Positions 5,904-45,918 of a stretch of DNA of 64,000 bases are shown piece by piece (position 1 is the first letter of the stretch; each line of letters begins with the position of its first letter). The DNA is from Candidatus Frackibacter sp. WG13 (GTDB lineage Bacteria; Bacillota; Halanaerobiia; Halobacteroidales; Acetohalobiaceae), in assembly GCF_900114655.1 (NCBI RefSeq), contig NZ_FOTT01000001.1, positions 130,973-194,972 of the forward strand, written 5' to 3'. A program made the translations under genes and the position numbers. Under the pieces are notes generated by a model. It saw only the letters and a list, made by a program, of their open reading frames with translations. It was not told where the DNA came from and did no database searches.

Positions 5904-6896
5904 TTAATCATCTTTTATCTGCTTAAGTTTCATTTGTAGCTTTTCTAACAAAGTGTCTTTAGCCTCTGCTAATGGAGCTTGAATGGTACAACCAGCAGCC
6001 CGGGGATGACCTCCACCCCCAAATTGATGGGCAAACTCATTGACCGGAAAATAATTGTTTGACCTAAGACTAACTCTAGTCTTTTCTGGCTCTACCCCTT
6101 TGAATAGAACTCCTACCTCAACTCCCTTCAGACTCCGCGGATAATTAACTAACCCTTCTGTATCCTCCCAAGCAGCTCCTAATTTAGCTAACATTGGTTC
6201 ATCTACCACTGTCCAAGCTACCTGTCCATTGGCAGTTACTTCAAGATTAGTTAATACTTTGCCTTTCAGTTTCATACTACTATAGCTTTCGGTCTCATAG
6301 ACATTCTTAATTATCTCTTGGGTATCCACCCCTAACTCTAACATATCAGCAATAATACGATGTGTCTCTGGAGAAGTATTAGAATATCTAAAATTACCAG
6401 TATCGGTAATAATAGCAGTAGCAATTGCCATTCCAAAATCAAATTGAAAATTACTCCCTAACTCTACTGCTAAATTATAAATTAACTCTCCAGTAGCTGA
6501 AACCGTAGCATCAACATAATTATAAGCACCATAATTACTATTGTCACTATGATGGTCAATATTAATCTTCCTTACTTCTGGAACAAAGAAATCTTTAACT
6601 TGACCAATTCTATCTAAAGCACTACAATCTAGTATGAAATACAGGTCATAATCTTCCGCTTTAATCTCATCTGGTAAATCATTAACTAAATAGATATCGT
6701 TAGCTCCATTTAAGAATCTTAAATATTGTGGTACTGGATCAGCTAAAAGAATATCTATCTTTTGAGCATAGGGTTCTAATAGATATTGTAATCCTAAGAG
6801 AGAACCAATACTATCTCCATCTGGATTAACGTGAGCAGTTAACAAAAAATTATCATGCTTCTCTATTAAATTAATTAAATGTTGATACTTTTTCAT
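5904..6896 (-). CDS. nrnA: Bifunctional oligoribonuclease / pAp phosphatase (DHH family)
   Basis: 330-residue DHH-DHHA1 phosphoesterase that degrades nanoRNAs and dephosphorylates 3'-phosphoadenosine 5'-phosphate. The metal centre shows TAHVNPDGDSIGS near residue 21, an Asp near residue 110 (ILDCSALDRIG) and the DHH motif (IDHHSDN, about 136). The C-terminal DHHA1 domain carries the substrate loop GGGGHPRAAG at about 293. It sits between rbfA and ribF as in Bacilli and Clostridia. Confidence 0.95.
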   Translation of the reverse strand: MKKYQHLINLIEKHDNFLLTAHVNPDGDSIGSLLGLQYLLEPYAQKIDILLADPVPQYLRFLNGANDIYLVNDLPDEIKAEDYDLYFILDCSALDRIGQVKDFFVPEVRKINIDHHSDNSNYGAYNYVDATVSATGELIYNLAVELGSNFQFDFGMAIATAIITDTGNFRYSNTSPETHRIIADMLELGVDTQEIIKNVYETESYSSMKLKGKVLTNLEVTANGQVAWTVVDEPMLAKLGAAWEDTEGLVNYPRSLKGVEVGVLFKGVEPEKTRVSLRSNNYFPVNEFAHQFGGGGHPRAAGCTIQAPLAEAKDTLLEKLQMKLKQIKDD

Positions 6897-11233: not shown

Positions 11234-14200
11234 TTAACCAAATAATGACAATTGATTAGTTTCTGGTAGACCCTCTAAACAGCCATGCTCTTTCATTACT
11301 TCAATAACTGTCTTGCTAACACTAGCCCGATTACTTAAATCTTCAATAGAAGTAAACTTTTCTTCATTCCTAGCTTGAATAATACTTTCTGCTGCACTAG
11401 ACCCTAAACCTTGTAAAGTAATTAGCGGAGGTCGTAATCCTTCATCAGTAATTTTAAACTCATTTATTTTAGAATCATAAAGATGGACATTAGTAAATTC
11501 AATACCCCTTTGCATCGCTTCAATTACTATCTCTAATACCGTTAATGTATTCTTATCCTTTTGGGTAGCATCATTACCTTTACTTCTAATCTCTGTAATC
11601 TTCTTTTTGATAAATTCTTCTCCTTGGATTACTATCTGTGCATCAAAATCATCAGCCTTAATCGTAAAGTAAGTATTATAAAAGGCTTCTGGATGATGCA
11701 CTTTAAAGTAAGCAATTCTAAAAGCCATCATAACATAAGCAACAGCGTGAGCTTTAGGGAACATATATTTAATCGTTTTACAGGACTTAATATACCATTG
11801 TGGTACATCTTGCTCTATCATTGCCGCTTCCTCTTCTTCAGTTAAACCTTTCCCTTTACGAACATGTTCCATAATCCAGAAAGCTTGATTAGGTTCTACC
11901 CCTTTCTGGATTAAATAGTTCATGATGTCATCTCTAACGGAGATTACTTCTGCTAATTCAGCAGTACCTTCTTTAATTAAATCTTGAGCATTATTTAACC
12001 ATACGTCAGTACCATGAGAAAGACCACTAATTCTTACTAATTCAGCAAAAGTAGTAGGTCTTGTATCCTCTAGCATCTGCCGCACAAAACTAGTCCCAAA
12101 CTCAGGAATTCCTAGAGTTCCAACTGTAGTTCCGATATCATCTTCCGTAACTCCTAATGACTCTAAACCTGAAAAGATCGCCATAGTATCCGGATCATCC
12201 AAAGGAATATCTTGGGGATCAATTCCGGTAATATCCTGTAACATTCTAATACTGGTTGGATCATCATGACCAAGAATATCTAACTTTAAGAGATTATCAT
12301 GAATAGAGTGGAAATCAAAATGAGTTGTCAAAGTATCTGTGCTCATATCATTGGCCGGTTTTTGTACCGGAGTAAAGTCATAAATTTCCTTGTCTTGTGG
12401 TACAACTATCTGCCCACCAGGATGCTGTCCGGTAGTTCTTCTTACTCCTGTACAACCAGAAACTAAACGAGTAGTTTCGGCCTTTCTTAGAATCAAGCCG
12501 TTATCATCAGCATAACCTTTAACAAAACCATAAGCTGTTCGGTTAGCAATAGTAGATATAGTTCCAGCTCTATAGACATAATCTTTGCCAAACAATGTCT
12601 CAGTGTACTTATGCACTTCTGGCTGATATTCACCAGAAAAGTTAAGATCAATATCAGGCACCTTATCTCCTTCAAAACCTAAAAAGACCTCAAACGGAAT
12701 ATCATATCCATCTTTGATAAGCTTAACACCACATTCCGGGCAGTCCTTATCTTCAAGGTCAACCCCTACGCCAATAGAACCATCCGTAATAAATTCAGAG
12801 TGTTTGCACTCGGGACATCTATAATGAGGTGGTAACGGATTAACCTCGGTGATATCTGTCATTGTCGCCGCAAATGAAGAACCTACTGACCCTCGAGAGC
12901 CGACCAAATAACCATCATCTAATGATTTCTTAACTAATTTCTGCGAGGTCAAATAGATAACTGCATAACCGTTCCCAATAATAGAATTAAGCTCTCGCTC
13001 TAATCTCTTTTCCACAAGTTCAGGCAAAGGATCTCCATACCATAATTTGGCCTTTTCATAAGCCATATTTCTAACCTCTTCATCGGCTCCCTCAATCGTT
13101 GGTGTAAATAGTTGATCAGGAATTATTTCGATTTCTTCAGTCATATTCGCTATCTTTTTAGGATTATCGATTACTAATTCTTTAGCCACTTCTTCATCAA
13201 AATATGAAAACTCATCTAACATTTCATCTGTCGTTCTAAAGTATAAGGGTGCTTGGTCTGCTGCATCATCAAAACCTTGACCTTCCATCAATATCTGTCG
13301 ATAAATACTATCCTTTGGATCTAAGAAGTGAACATCTCCAGCAGCAACCACAGGTTTACCTAATTTCTTTCCTAGTTGATAGATCTTCTGATTAATCTCT
13401 TCTAAGTCTTCTAAAGAATCGACCTCTCCTTTTTCTAATAAGAACTTATTATTACCTACCGGCTGTAGCTCTAAATAATCATAAAATTTAGCTAATTTTT
13501 CAAGTTCATTATCCGGTTTTCCATTTAATACAGCTTTATATAGCTGTCCTGCCTCACAAGCTGAACCAATAATTAACCCTTTCCTCTTCTCCAACAAATC
13601 ACTCTTAAGAATTCGTGGTTTTTTATAAAAAGTATCTATATGAGACTTAGAAACTAATTTATAAAGGTTCTTAAGCCCTTTTTGATTCTTAACTAAGATA
13701 GTTGTGTGATGAGGATAGATTCGCTTATGATCAATTTCACTTACTAATTGATTAATCTTTATTAAGTTAGTGATCTCCTCTTCTTCCATTAATGCTATTA
13801 ATTCTAATAAGATTTCTCCTGTGACTTGAGCATCATCACTGGCTCGGTGATGGTTATCTAATGTTTTATTAAATCTATCAGCCAGTTTATTGAGTTTATG
13901 ACTCTTCATTTCTGGCAATAAAGCTCGCGATAAATTTAAAGTATCTAAACCTGGATTAGTTAATTTAGATCTATCTAATCTTCTTAATTTATCTTCAATA
14001 AAACTAAGGTCGAACGAAAGATTATGAGCAACGATCGTATGGTCCCCAATAAATTCTAAAAAGTCATCTATTACCTCTTCCAATTTCGGTGCGTCAACTA
14101 CCATATCATTAGTGATTCCAGTTAATTCAGTAATTTTATCTGGAATCTCTCGTCTCGGATTGATAAATGTCTGGTAAGACTCAACTACTTCTCCCTCTTT

Positions 14201-42641: not shown

Positions 42642-43703
42642 CTAATACCCCCTTTCGTTATTTAATTGGTATACATAAGCTAATATTTCAGCTACTGCCT
42701 GATATAACTCTACCGGAATCTCTTGACCGATTTCAGCTTCTGCATACAATGCTCTTGCTAAAGGCTTCTCTTCTACAATCTCTATATCATGTTCTTTAGC
42801 CTTTTCTTTAATTTTTTGGGCGACTTCCCCTTTACCTTTACCAATTATTACTGGCGCTTCCATTGTATCCATATCAAATTTGATTGCTACTGCAATATGA
42901 GTCGGGTTAGTAATTACTACATCAGCATCAGGAATATCAGACATCATCCTATTCATAGCTAACTTCTGTTGTTCCTCTTTAATTCGTTTCTGTACCTCTG
43001 GACTACCTTCAGTCTGCTTCCTTTCTTCTTTTACTTGCTGCTTTGTCATCTTTAAATCCTGTTCATGCTGCCATTTTTGATATATAAAATCACCGACTCC
43101 TAATATAATTAATATAATACTAATCTTAATTGCCAACGAATAAACTATCCCGCCAATTAACCTAAGTGCTTGGTCTAAACTCATCTTTCCTAATAACAAT
43201 ATATCTGATAATCTGCTCTTAATTGTCAAGTATGCAATTACTCCAACAATGCTTATCTTTAATAATGACTTTAAAAACTCTACAAATGTCTTTTTAGAAA
43301 ACATATTCTTAAAACCAGAAATTGGATTCAACTTACTAATCTTAGGTTGAATTGCTTTTGGTGTAAAAAGAAATCCAGTTTGAAAAATTCCTAAAGCGCT
43401 ACCAATCACCGCAGTTACAACCATAATCGGGGCTATTAATTGAAGAATAAAACGCATTATTTCTAATAATAAAGTATGAAAATTACGAGCAGTTAAGGCT
43501 AAAGTTAAATAATCACTCAAGAACTTAGTCATAAATTCTGATAATTCAACAATCATACTATTCATTAAAAAGAAAAGGACAATAAAACTAAATAATAAGG
43601 TAAATGCCATAGATAAATCTTGACTTTTGGCCACCTGTCCCTCTTCTCGAGCCTCTTGACGCCGTTTGGGGGTCGCCTCTTCGGTCTTTTCTTCAGCTGG
43701 CAT
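42642..43703 (-). CDS. flhB: Flagellar export switch protein FlhB
   Basis: 353 residues. N-terminal KTEEATPKRRQEAREEGQVA, four membrane helices, and a cytoplasmic domain with the self-cleavage motif NPTHIAVAIKF (Asn-Pro-Thr-His, about 266) that sets the switch from hook to filament export. Acts with FliP, FliQ and FliR. ATG follows GGGGGG. It lies 12 bases downstream of the true end of fliR, not of the premature TGA. Confidence 0.97.
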   Translation of the reverse strand: MPAEEKTEEATPKRRQEAREEGQVAKSQDLSMAFTLLFSFIVLFFLMNSMIVELSEFMTKFLSDYLTLALTARNFHTLLLEIMRFILQLIAPIMVVTAVIGSALGIFQTGFLFTPKAIQPKISKLNPISGFKNMFSKKTFVEFLKSLLKISIVGVIAYLTIKSRLSDILLLGKMSLDQALRLIGGIVYSLAIKISIILIILGVGDFIYQKWQHEQDLKMTKQQVKEERKQTEGSPEVQKRIKEEQQKLAMNRMMSDIPDADVVITNPTHIAVAIKFDMDTMEAPVIIGKGKGEVAQKIKEKAKEHDIEIVEEKPLARALYAEAEIGQEIPVELYQAVAEILAYVYQLNNERGY

Positions 43704-43715
43704 ATTAATCCCCCC

Positions 43716-44492
43716 TTAACTACCTAAAATATTAATTATATCATTCATATTAATAAACATATCTCTAAACAACTCTTTCAAGAGTGAAATATAAATCGGC
43801 ATTGTTAAAGATAACAATAAAATTCCTACTAATATTTTAGTAGGGAGACCGACTACAAAGATATTAATCTGAGGTACTGCTCTAGCTACTAAGCCAAAAG
43901 CTATATCAGTTAAAAATCAGACTGCTACTAATGGTAGAGCAATCTTAAAGGCTAGTGGGAATAATTGACCAATAATCTTTAGCAATTTCATAAATAACGC
44001 ATTAGATAACTCTGCTTTAGTTAAAGGAATAATAAGAAAACTTTTATCTAAAGCCTGTAACAAATGATGGTGCCCATTAATTACCAAAAAGAGTAATGTA
44101 GCCAAAATATTTTTAAATTGCCCTGTTAAAGCACTTGGATTTCCATTCTGTGGGTCCATTACATTAGCTAGAGCAAAACCCATTCGCATATCCATAAATT
44201 GACCTGCTAATTGAATACTAACAAATATTAATAGAGCTATAAGTCCTAAAACAAGTCCAATACTAAATTCAGTCAACATATCAAATGTTAGATATATTAA
44301 ATTACTTGGTAGTTCTAAATTATTATTAGAGAGCACATTCCCTAAGATAAAAGTTATTAATAACGCTAATCCGAGTCTAATACGAGTAGGAATAGTTCGA
44401 CTACCATAAAAAGGAGTAATTATAAATAGACCAGTAACCCTCATCAAAATTAAGACTCTTTGATATATGATCTGCATAATCGCTAAATCCAT
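43716..44492 (-). pseudogene. fliR: FliR, flagellar export gate protein, interrupted by an in-frame TGA
   Basis: The frame encodes 258 codons, a normal FliR length, but codon 192 is TGA (43917-43919). Before it: MDLAIMQIIYQRVLILMR, YGSRTIPTRIRLGLALL, FAL.NVMDPQNGN-type segment and ALPLVAV. After it the frame continues with FLTDIAFGLVARAVPQINIF, VVGLPTKILVGILLL and a membrane helix to a TAA at 43716, exactly the conserved FliR C-terminus. Translation stopping at TGA would lose the last ~66 residues and part of the gate. Since all neighbours are intact, a recent nonsense mutation (TTA to TGA would do), a sequence error, or readthrough are all possible. Selenocysteine has no precedent in FliR. 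ATG follows AAGGAG. Confidence 0.8.
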
Positions 44493-44506: not shown

Positions 44507-44776
44507 CTACCCAACATAACTAGGTATATTTATAAATAAGTTCCGAACAAAATCTAAAAGCACATTTAACATCCAAGGACCAAATACTATAATTGCTCCT
44601 AAAACCGCAAGAATTTTTGGAATAAAAGCTAAAGTTTGTTCTTGAATTTGAGTAGTAGCCTGAAATATACTGACTAGTAGACCGGTTAAAAGACCTAAGC
44701 CTAACATAGGAGCTGTTACCATTAAGACTTTCATTAATGCAGTTCTACCTAAATCAATTACCAACTGTTCCGTCAT
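44507..44776 (-). CDS. fliQ: Flagellar export gate protein FliQ
   Basis: 89 residues, two membrane helices: the first around VTAPMLGLGLLTGLLVSIFQ, the second ILAVLGAIIVFGPWMLNVLL, with the connecting ATTQIQEQTLAFIPK that is the family hallmark. Four copies join FliP5FliR1 to form the export gate. Located between fliP and fliR. Confidence 0.96.
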   Translation of the reverse strand: MTEQLVIDLGRTALMKVLMVTAPMLGLGLLTGLLVSIFQATTQIQEQTLAFIPKILAVLGAIIVFGPWMLNVLLDFVRNLFINIPSYVG

Positions 44777-44798: not shown

Positions 44799-45572
44799 CT
44801 AATTAAACGTCATAACTAATGATTTAATAACTAAATACCAACCATCTACTAATACAAATAGTAGTATCTTAAACGGTAATGAAATCATTACTGGCGGTAA
44901 CATCATCATTCCCATAGACATTAACGTACTGGCTACTATCATATCAATAACTATAAAAGGTAGGTAAATTATGAATCCGATTTGAAAAGCAATCCGTAAT
45001 TCACTAATAATATAAGCCGGTATTAAGACATAAGTTGGAATATCTGCTTGATTTTTGGGTCTAGAGACCTTTGCTATATCTACAAAAAGAGCTAAATCTT
45101 TTTCCCGAGTCTGTTTAAACATAAATCCTCTCAATGGCTTTATCGCTTGTCTATATAATTCTTGTTGATTAATCTCATCAGCTAAGTACGGCTGTATAGC
45201 ATTATCATATACTTGCGTAAAGACTGGAGCCATAATAAATATAGTTAAAAAGATTGCTAACCCAATGATTACTTGGTTAGGAGGCATCCGTTGAGTTGCC
45301 AAAGCCCTTCTAATTAAAGATAGGACCACAATAATACGAGTAAATGAAGTTAACATTATTAAAATAGCAGGTGCTAATGATAGTACTGTTAATAATAAAA
45401 GAATCTGTAACGGTAAGACTAAATCTTGATTATTATTAGCATTATCTATATTTAAACTAATATCTGGCAGTTGAAAAGTTGGAGCTGCCTCTACGACTTC
45501 TTGGTAACCAATGACTAATAATAGTAATAATCCTAATACTACTAAAATAGATCTCTTTCTATTTTTAAACAT
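44799..45572 (-). CDS. fliP: Flagellar export gate protein FliP
   Basis: 257 residues. Cleavable-type signal (ILVVLGLLLLLVIGYQEVVEA), a periplasmic segment, then four helices. Signatures: LTSFTRIIVVLSLIRRALAT (about 78-97), PPNQVIIGLAIFLT, and the C-terminal MGMMMLPPVMISLPFKILLF. ATG 45572 is preferred (ATGTTTAA overlap with the fliO stop); an in-frame ATG at 45584 lies against the ribosome binding site. Confidence 0.96.
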   Translation of the reverse strand: MFKNRKRSILVVLGLLLLLVIGYQEVVEAAPTFQLPDISLNIDNANNNQDLVLPLQILLLLTVLSLAPAILIMLTSFTRIIVVLSLIRRALATQRMPPNQVIIGLAIFLTIFIMAPVFTQVYDNAIQPYLADEINQQELYRQAIKPLRGFMFKQTREKDLALFVDIAKVSRPKNQADIPTYVLIPAYIISELRIAFQIGFIIYLPFIVIDMIVASTLMSMGMMMLPPVMISLPFKILLFVLVDGWYLVIKSLVMTFN

Positions 45573-45918
45573 GATTATCTTCATCCCTATTAAACCAGTT
45601 CATAAATCCTTCTTGCCAATTCATTCCCTTTCCATTAACCACTTTATTAGTTATCTCTTCTACTTCCTCTGGATTATCTATTTTCGCCAACAACTCAATC
45701 TGTCCTTCACTAACTCCTAATATCCAAAGTTCATTAATGACCTTTGTCAGACATAGAAATTGATTAGAATTAAAATGAAGCCTTTCTAAAACTCTTAAGT
45801 TTTGATTAAACCCTTGCAAATTACTCTGGCTTTTAATAAATTTAATAATTATAAAGAATAGAATAATAATGAAGCTCAAGTAAAATAGTGTTTTAAGTAA
45901 TTGCCAGGAAAAATCCAT
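45565..45918 (-). CDS. fliO: Flagellar protein FliO
   Basis: 117 residues: one N-terminal membrane helix (LFYLSFIIILFFIIIKFI) and a small cytoplasmic domain with VLERLHFNSNQFLCLTKVIN and LWILGVSEGQIELLAKI, the pattern of FliO/FliZ-family proteins. FliO scaffolds FliP assembly. It precedes fliP as expected and overlaps it by eight bases. Confidence 0.88.
   Translation of the reverse strand: MDFSWQLLKTLFYLSFIIILFFIIIKFIKSQSNLQGFNQNLRVLERLHFNSNQFLCLTKVINELWILGVSEGQIELLAKIDNPEEVEEITNKVVNGKGMNWQEGFMNWFNRDEDNHV

Follow-up and report, generated by a model that had tools for sequence, protein, structure and literature searches.

The window analysed here, a stretch of 64,000 nucleotides from the genome of Candidatus Frackibacter sp. 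WG13, carries the flagellar gene fliR on the minus strand together with flhB, fliQ and fliP (Table 1). The gene starts with an ATG at 44492, preceded by a good ribosome-binding site, ends with a TAA at 43716-43718, and is interrupted at codon 192 by an in-frame TGA. An initial annotation of this DNA had reported the TGA, followed by 66 codons reading as a normal FliR C-terminus and by a TAA just ahead of flhB, and the observation as a whole is confirmed: the coordinates and numbers of codons are correct, the 66 codons match the end of the Pfam profile Bac_export_1 (PF01311), and the TAA lies 12 bases from the flhB start. With the stop taken as any residue, the gene matches this profile along nearly its full length (positions 5-229 of 230, 234 bits versus a cut-off of 27.8), which places it in the FliR family. 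Each half also matches on its own, the first up to profile position 176 and the second from position 178, so that the profile runs continuously over the TGA; with family homology on both sides, the in-frame stop is, as judged from the sequence, no chance effect of open reading frames.

Table 1 Features of the fliR locus and of other interrupted or selenocysteine-encoding genes. Positions without a handle are those of the window; the others follow the handle of their stretch.
Feature	Position	Strand	Evidence or remark
fliR, interrupted: 191 codons, TGA, 66 codons, TAA	43716..44492	-	PF01311 across stop, E 1.8e-69
In-frame TGA, codon 192 of fliR	43917..43919	-	direct sequence
5' part of fliR, 191 codons, predicted truncated product	43920..44492	-	PF01311 profile 5-176, E 4.7e-49
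3' part of fliR past the stop, 66 codons and TAA, still conserved	43716..43916	-	PF01311 profile 178-229, E 5.5e-16
flhB, intact	42642..43703	-	TIGR00328, E 1e-128
fliQ, intact	44507..44776	-	TIGR01402
fliP, intact	44799..45584	-	TIGR01103
glnA, one of two copies, in-frame TGA	L123 (G000:C14:100001-120000) 6398-6400		TGG in 12 relatives
Sodium-dependent transporter, TGA	L142 3296		Trp in nearest relative, 92% identical
mfd, in-frame TAA	L141 (G000:C23:20001-40000) 13993-13995		conserved Glu
arcC, TAA	L159 11870		Glu in solved homologue
2-oxoacid:acceptor oxidoreductase alpha subunit, TAA	L081 4312	-	Glu or Asp in relatives
OPT transporter, single in-frame stop	L124 12894
LipS2-type gene, single in-frame stop	L147 2866
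GntR/UTRA regulator, single in-frame stop	L135 5576
TPR-like protein, single in-frame stop	L123 17870
Outer-membrane-like protein, single in-frame stop	L047 11548
Apparent Sec UGA codons in GrdA, GrdB and the DUF2284 (MbdU/ArsM-like) protein	L049 960 and 3920; L133 10952 (minus)

Flagellar gene complement

A profile search of the genome returned this fliR as the sole FliR match, and no backup paralogue was found across the genome. Downstream, flhB is probably translatable independently of fliR, because its start, 12 bases past the fliR TAA, stands behind a ribosome-binding site of its own, a run of G. Elsewhere in the window, the flagellar genes are uninterrupted and each has a match to its family, weak in some cases: a flgB-like gene, flgC, fliE, fliF, fliG, fliH, fliI, fliJ, fliK, flgD, the hook gene, motA, motB, fliL, fliM, fliY, cheY, fliO, fliP, fliQ, flhB, flhA, flhF, a flhG/minD-like gene and the che genes. 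On another contig, two genes of the flagellin family are likewise uninterrupted and match that family, in agreement with the initial annotation, in which every other flagellar gene looked intact. Solved FliR structures, which align over residues 16-254, indicate by homology that the final quarter of FliR is lost to the stop. Given the integral place of FliR in the FliPQR gate and the Campylobacter jejuni case discussed below, truncation at this codon would be expected to abolish export.

fliR in related genomes

The order was sampled with 13 genomes from nine genera, this one included. In all 12 other genomes the profile search gave an uninterrupted FliR match, and the stop at codon 192 is therefore present in this genome only, absent from every relative's orthologue (12/12) as befits a pseudogene or nonsense allele. 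In 33 homologues spanning many phyla, codon 192 aligns with Leu in 23, Val in seven and Ile in three, and never with Trp, Cys or selenocysteine (Sec); the codon sits just ahead of a conserved segment, which reads FLTDIAFGLVARAVPQINIF here. Codons downstream of the TGA are conserved as well as those upstream. Relative to the nearest relative, the part past the stop is 82% identical and the first part 75%, and the former differs by 0.092 at codon positions 1 and 2 and by 0.385 at position 3. This conservation mostly predates the lesion; it shows the lesion to be young, and gives no sign of present synthesis of the complete protein. Since the downstream codons are equally conserved and no other flagellar gene is disrupted, the lesion is either recent or an error.

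The same observations bear on the main rival of a genuine mutation, namely an erroneous TGA from base calling or assembly, in which case the true gene would be intact and the organism possibly motile. A fully conserved region past the stop, a flagellar set free of decay elsewhere and a draft assembly of 48 contigs would fit such an error, and the intactness of all remaining flagellar genes, which leaves a long-standing loss without any sign, is a point against a nonsense allele. On the other hand, assembly completeness is 99.99% with contamination of 0.03%, and few indel-type disruptions were found, though by an insensitive screen. Together with the evidence from other interrupted genes given below, these data lead us to regard an error as unlikely, though as an alternative to be taken seriously.

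UGA decoding in this genome

The initial annotation had also held that TGA is a normal stop in this genome, since fliM and motB end with it, and that recoding was unlikely. Both statements are borne out. Among open reading frames of 200 codons or more, TAA terminates 958, TAG 318 and TGA 140, so that UGA ends 140 of 1416 (about 10%); the residue aligned with the fliR stop is aliphatic in 33/33 homologues, and neither a suppressor nor an altered tRNA was found. The genome encodes two tandem tRNA-Trp genes, both with a CCA anticodon and a five-pair anticodon stem, which rules out an altered tRNA-Trp that reads UGA. A defective release factor 2 (RF2) is ruled out as well by the presence of prfB, which has the SPF and GGQ motifs and, on visual inspection, a programmed frameshift site. 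Among the identified tRNAs (58 matches, a few of them in unreadable stretches), none besides tRNA-Sec carries a UCA anticodon, and a UCA-anticodon pattern run over the whole genome matched about as often as its control. A Leu-type candidate at C8:57587, which seemed at first to read UGA, is called Leu CAA by ARAGORN.

A second reading takes the UGA as a sense codon, either for selenocysteine or through a general reassignment to Trp. The genome does encode a tRNA-Sec and selenoproteins with true Sec sites, namely GrdA and GrdB, both identified from their sequences, and an MbdU/ArsM-type DUF2284 protein; UGA also stands at a Trp position in one glnA and in one transporter. However, the fliR column holds neither Cys nor Sec, which rules out selenocysteine by alignment, and no Trp either; FliR has no redox role; and the use of UGA as a terminator, a CCA tRNA-Trp with a five-pair stem and the presence of RF2 are not those of a genome with UGA reassigned. 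A search for a SECIS-like hairpin past the UGA was non-discriminating, as fliR gave a z of -1.17 and the true Sec controls ranged from -0.09 to -1.85. We find this reading hardly credible.

Low-level readthrough by a near-cognate tRNA might instead provide enough FliR for some gates, with the stop perhaps lowering its dosage. Each FliPQR gate incorporates only one FliR, so little of the protein would be needed, and the conserved downstream part would agree with readthrough. In-frame stops under purifying selection have indeed been reported as widespread in bacteria, but the same work found that they persist only briefly (PMC7918605). Moreover, a near-cognate tRNA reading through UGA usually inserts Trp, whereas the fliR column is Leu, Val or Ile; the downstream conservation records the history before the lesion; and the stop is conserved in none of the relatives, whereas a programmed readthrough site should be shared with them. 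A tRNA-Trp with an anticodon stem of four base pairs has been linked to UGA readthrough and would read UGA as Trp with no anticodon change (PMC13092985). In contrast, both tRNA-Trp genes here have five-pair stems, no suppressor tRNA was found and Trp is absent from the fliR column. Readthrough is thus rather improbable.

Two relatives carry partial second copies of tRNA-Trp comprising the 3' part only (L231 in G003 and L229 in G004, around 1500), at about 17 kb and 2.5 kb from the full gene, respectively; from their sequence, they look like attachment-site duplications left by integrated elements. At L166 18247-18306 (minus) lies a tRNA-like remnant that lacks its T arm and whose anticodon, on visual inspection, is of the Asn type.

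Single in-frame stops elsewhere in the genome

Coding potential was surveyed over about 2.5 Mb of the genome, with parts of contigs C1-C4, C6, C8 and C9 outside the survey, and some ten other genes emerged that are intact apart from a single in-frame stop (Table 1); the count is approximate, as candidates were chosen from a ranked list by visual inspection. The second copy of glnA is intact. The mfd gene of the nearest relative (L214 in G004), a separate assembly, contains an in-frame TAA too, at a different codon, and each of the two mfd stops falls where the other copies have Glu. Only two convincing cases emerged from a frameshift screen of low sensitivity, so that no firm proportion of stops to frameshifts follows: a sugar-transporter ATPase-like gene (L052, about 13876) and a glycosyltransferase-like gene (L111, about 3145) appear to be frameshifted.

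As some ten other intact-looking genes carry one stop each, a meaning specific to fliR, or a regulatory one, becomes less likely; with these genes and the mfd of the nearest relative, fliR belongs to a series of scattered nonsense alleles. The other stops are most simply read as recent nonsense alleles, carried in modest number; the rival reading is scattered base-call errors, which such isolated stops could be. Against errors, the similar lesion in mfd at another site comes from a separate assembly. The affected genes also seem dispensable in culture and random errors should strike essential genes too, an argument that is weak with about 11 cases. A lineage-wide leaky termination has to be weighed here as well, under which this lineage of halophilic anaerobes would tolerate a single UGA or UAA within genes and fliR would be functional despite its TGA. 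In its favor, none of the stops found here or in the nearest relative's mfd is at UAG, the codon read by RF1 only; however, the absence of UAG from about 11 single-stop lesions has a chance of about 0.036 under uniform mutation, too weak to rely on. This possibility is very improbable.

Discussion

The initial annotation left three options for the fliR stop, a nonsense mutation, a sequencing error or readthrough. All three hold as options, and the first is favored. With a probability of about two in three, we interpret the stop as a recent, ordinary nonsense (loss-of-function) allele of the sole fliR, leaving the strain with no functional FliR and a predicted loss of flagella. Translation would stop at codon 192 and release a FliR lacking its last quarter, the FliP-FliQ-FliR export gate would be left incomplete, and the sequenced strain would then be without flagella and non-motile. 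Behind the roughly one dozen scattered single-stop lesions may lie ordinary mutation under relaxed selection, for instance during isolation and maintenance. The interrupted genes are of the sort spared under culture or relaxed selection, and mutation fits lesions that are scattered in genes usually dispensable in culture. The stop, its absence from relatives, its intact flanks, the normal decoding machinery and the other lesions are shown by the data; the reality of the TGA base and the non-motile phenotype we infer.

A nonsense allele is a well-known kind of lesion, and the fliR allele by itself is ordinary. In a laboratory culture of C. jejuni 11168, motility was lost through a reversible one-base deletion in a homopolymer that truncated FliR after 39 residues (PMC7677240). 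As in that case, a cultured strain carries a spontaneous fliR truncation while its other flagellar genes are intact; unlike in C. jejuni, where far more of FliR was removed, the stop at codon 192 is of the substitution type and non-motility is only predicted. The fliR stop also resembles the in-frame stops analyzed by Belinky et al. 2021 (PMC7918605), in that a single stop interrupts a conserved gene with a signature of purifying selection on both sides. It differs from that set, which relied on stops common to at least two genomes, in occurring in one genome only. A literature search joining nonsense, readthrough and motility returned no match, and the wider pattern of single stops across the genome is new here.

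If the TGA is real, it predicts a specific and readily checked phenotype, the absence of flagella despite an otherwise complete flagellar gene set, and it cautions against reading motility off gene presence alone. If the genome stands close to Selenihalanaerobacter, as the ribosomal-protein charges and reductase genes described below tentatively suggest, and if that genus is indeed non-motile as described, the fliR stop would account for such non-motility. Should the strain prove motile with the TGA confirmed, fliR would provide a clean test, set by nature, of whether UGA is read through in an export-gate gene whose product is required in very few copies.

Additional observations

The main formate-dehydrogenase-like molybdopterin gene of this genome, at L192 (G000:C29:14530-15801), has no TGA inside its domain, and the equivalent best match carries a TGA in six other genomes of the order; going by the sequences, its Sec site may have been replaced here. 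The genome, which groups with Acetohalobium-like halophilic anaerobes, further encodes a NapA-like nitrate reductase and, at L066 5495-8569, a catalytic subunit of the DMSO/selenate reductase family with an N-terminally fused TorD-like chaperone domain; a ferredoxin-like gene comes next. About five ribosomal proteins of the S10-spc cluster have a low net charge; six such proteins are described in Selenihalanaerobacter shriftii and twelve in Acetohalobium arabaticum (PMC8672879).
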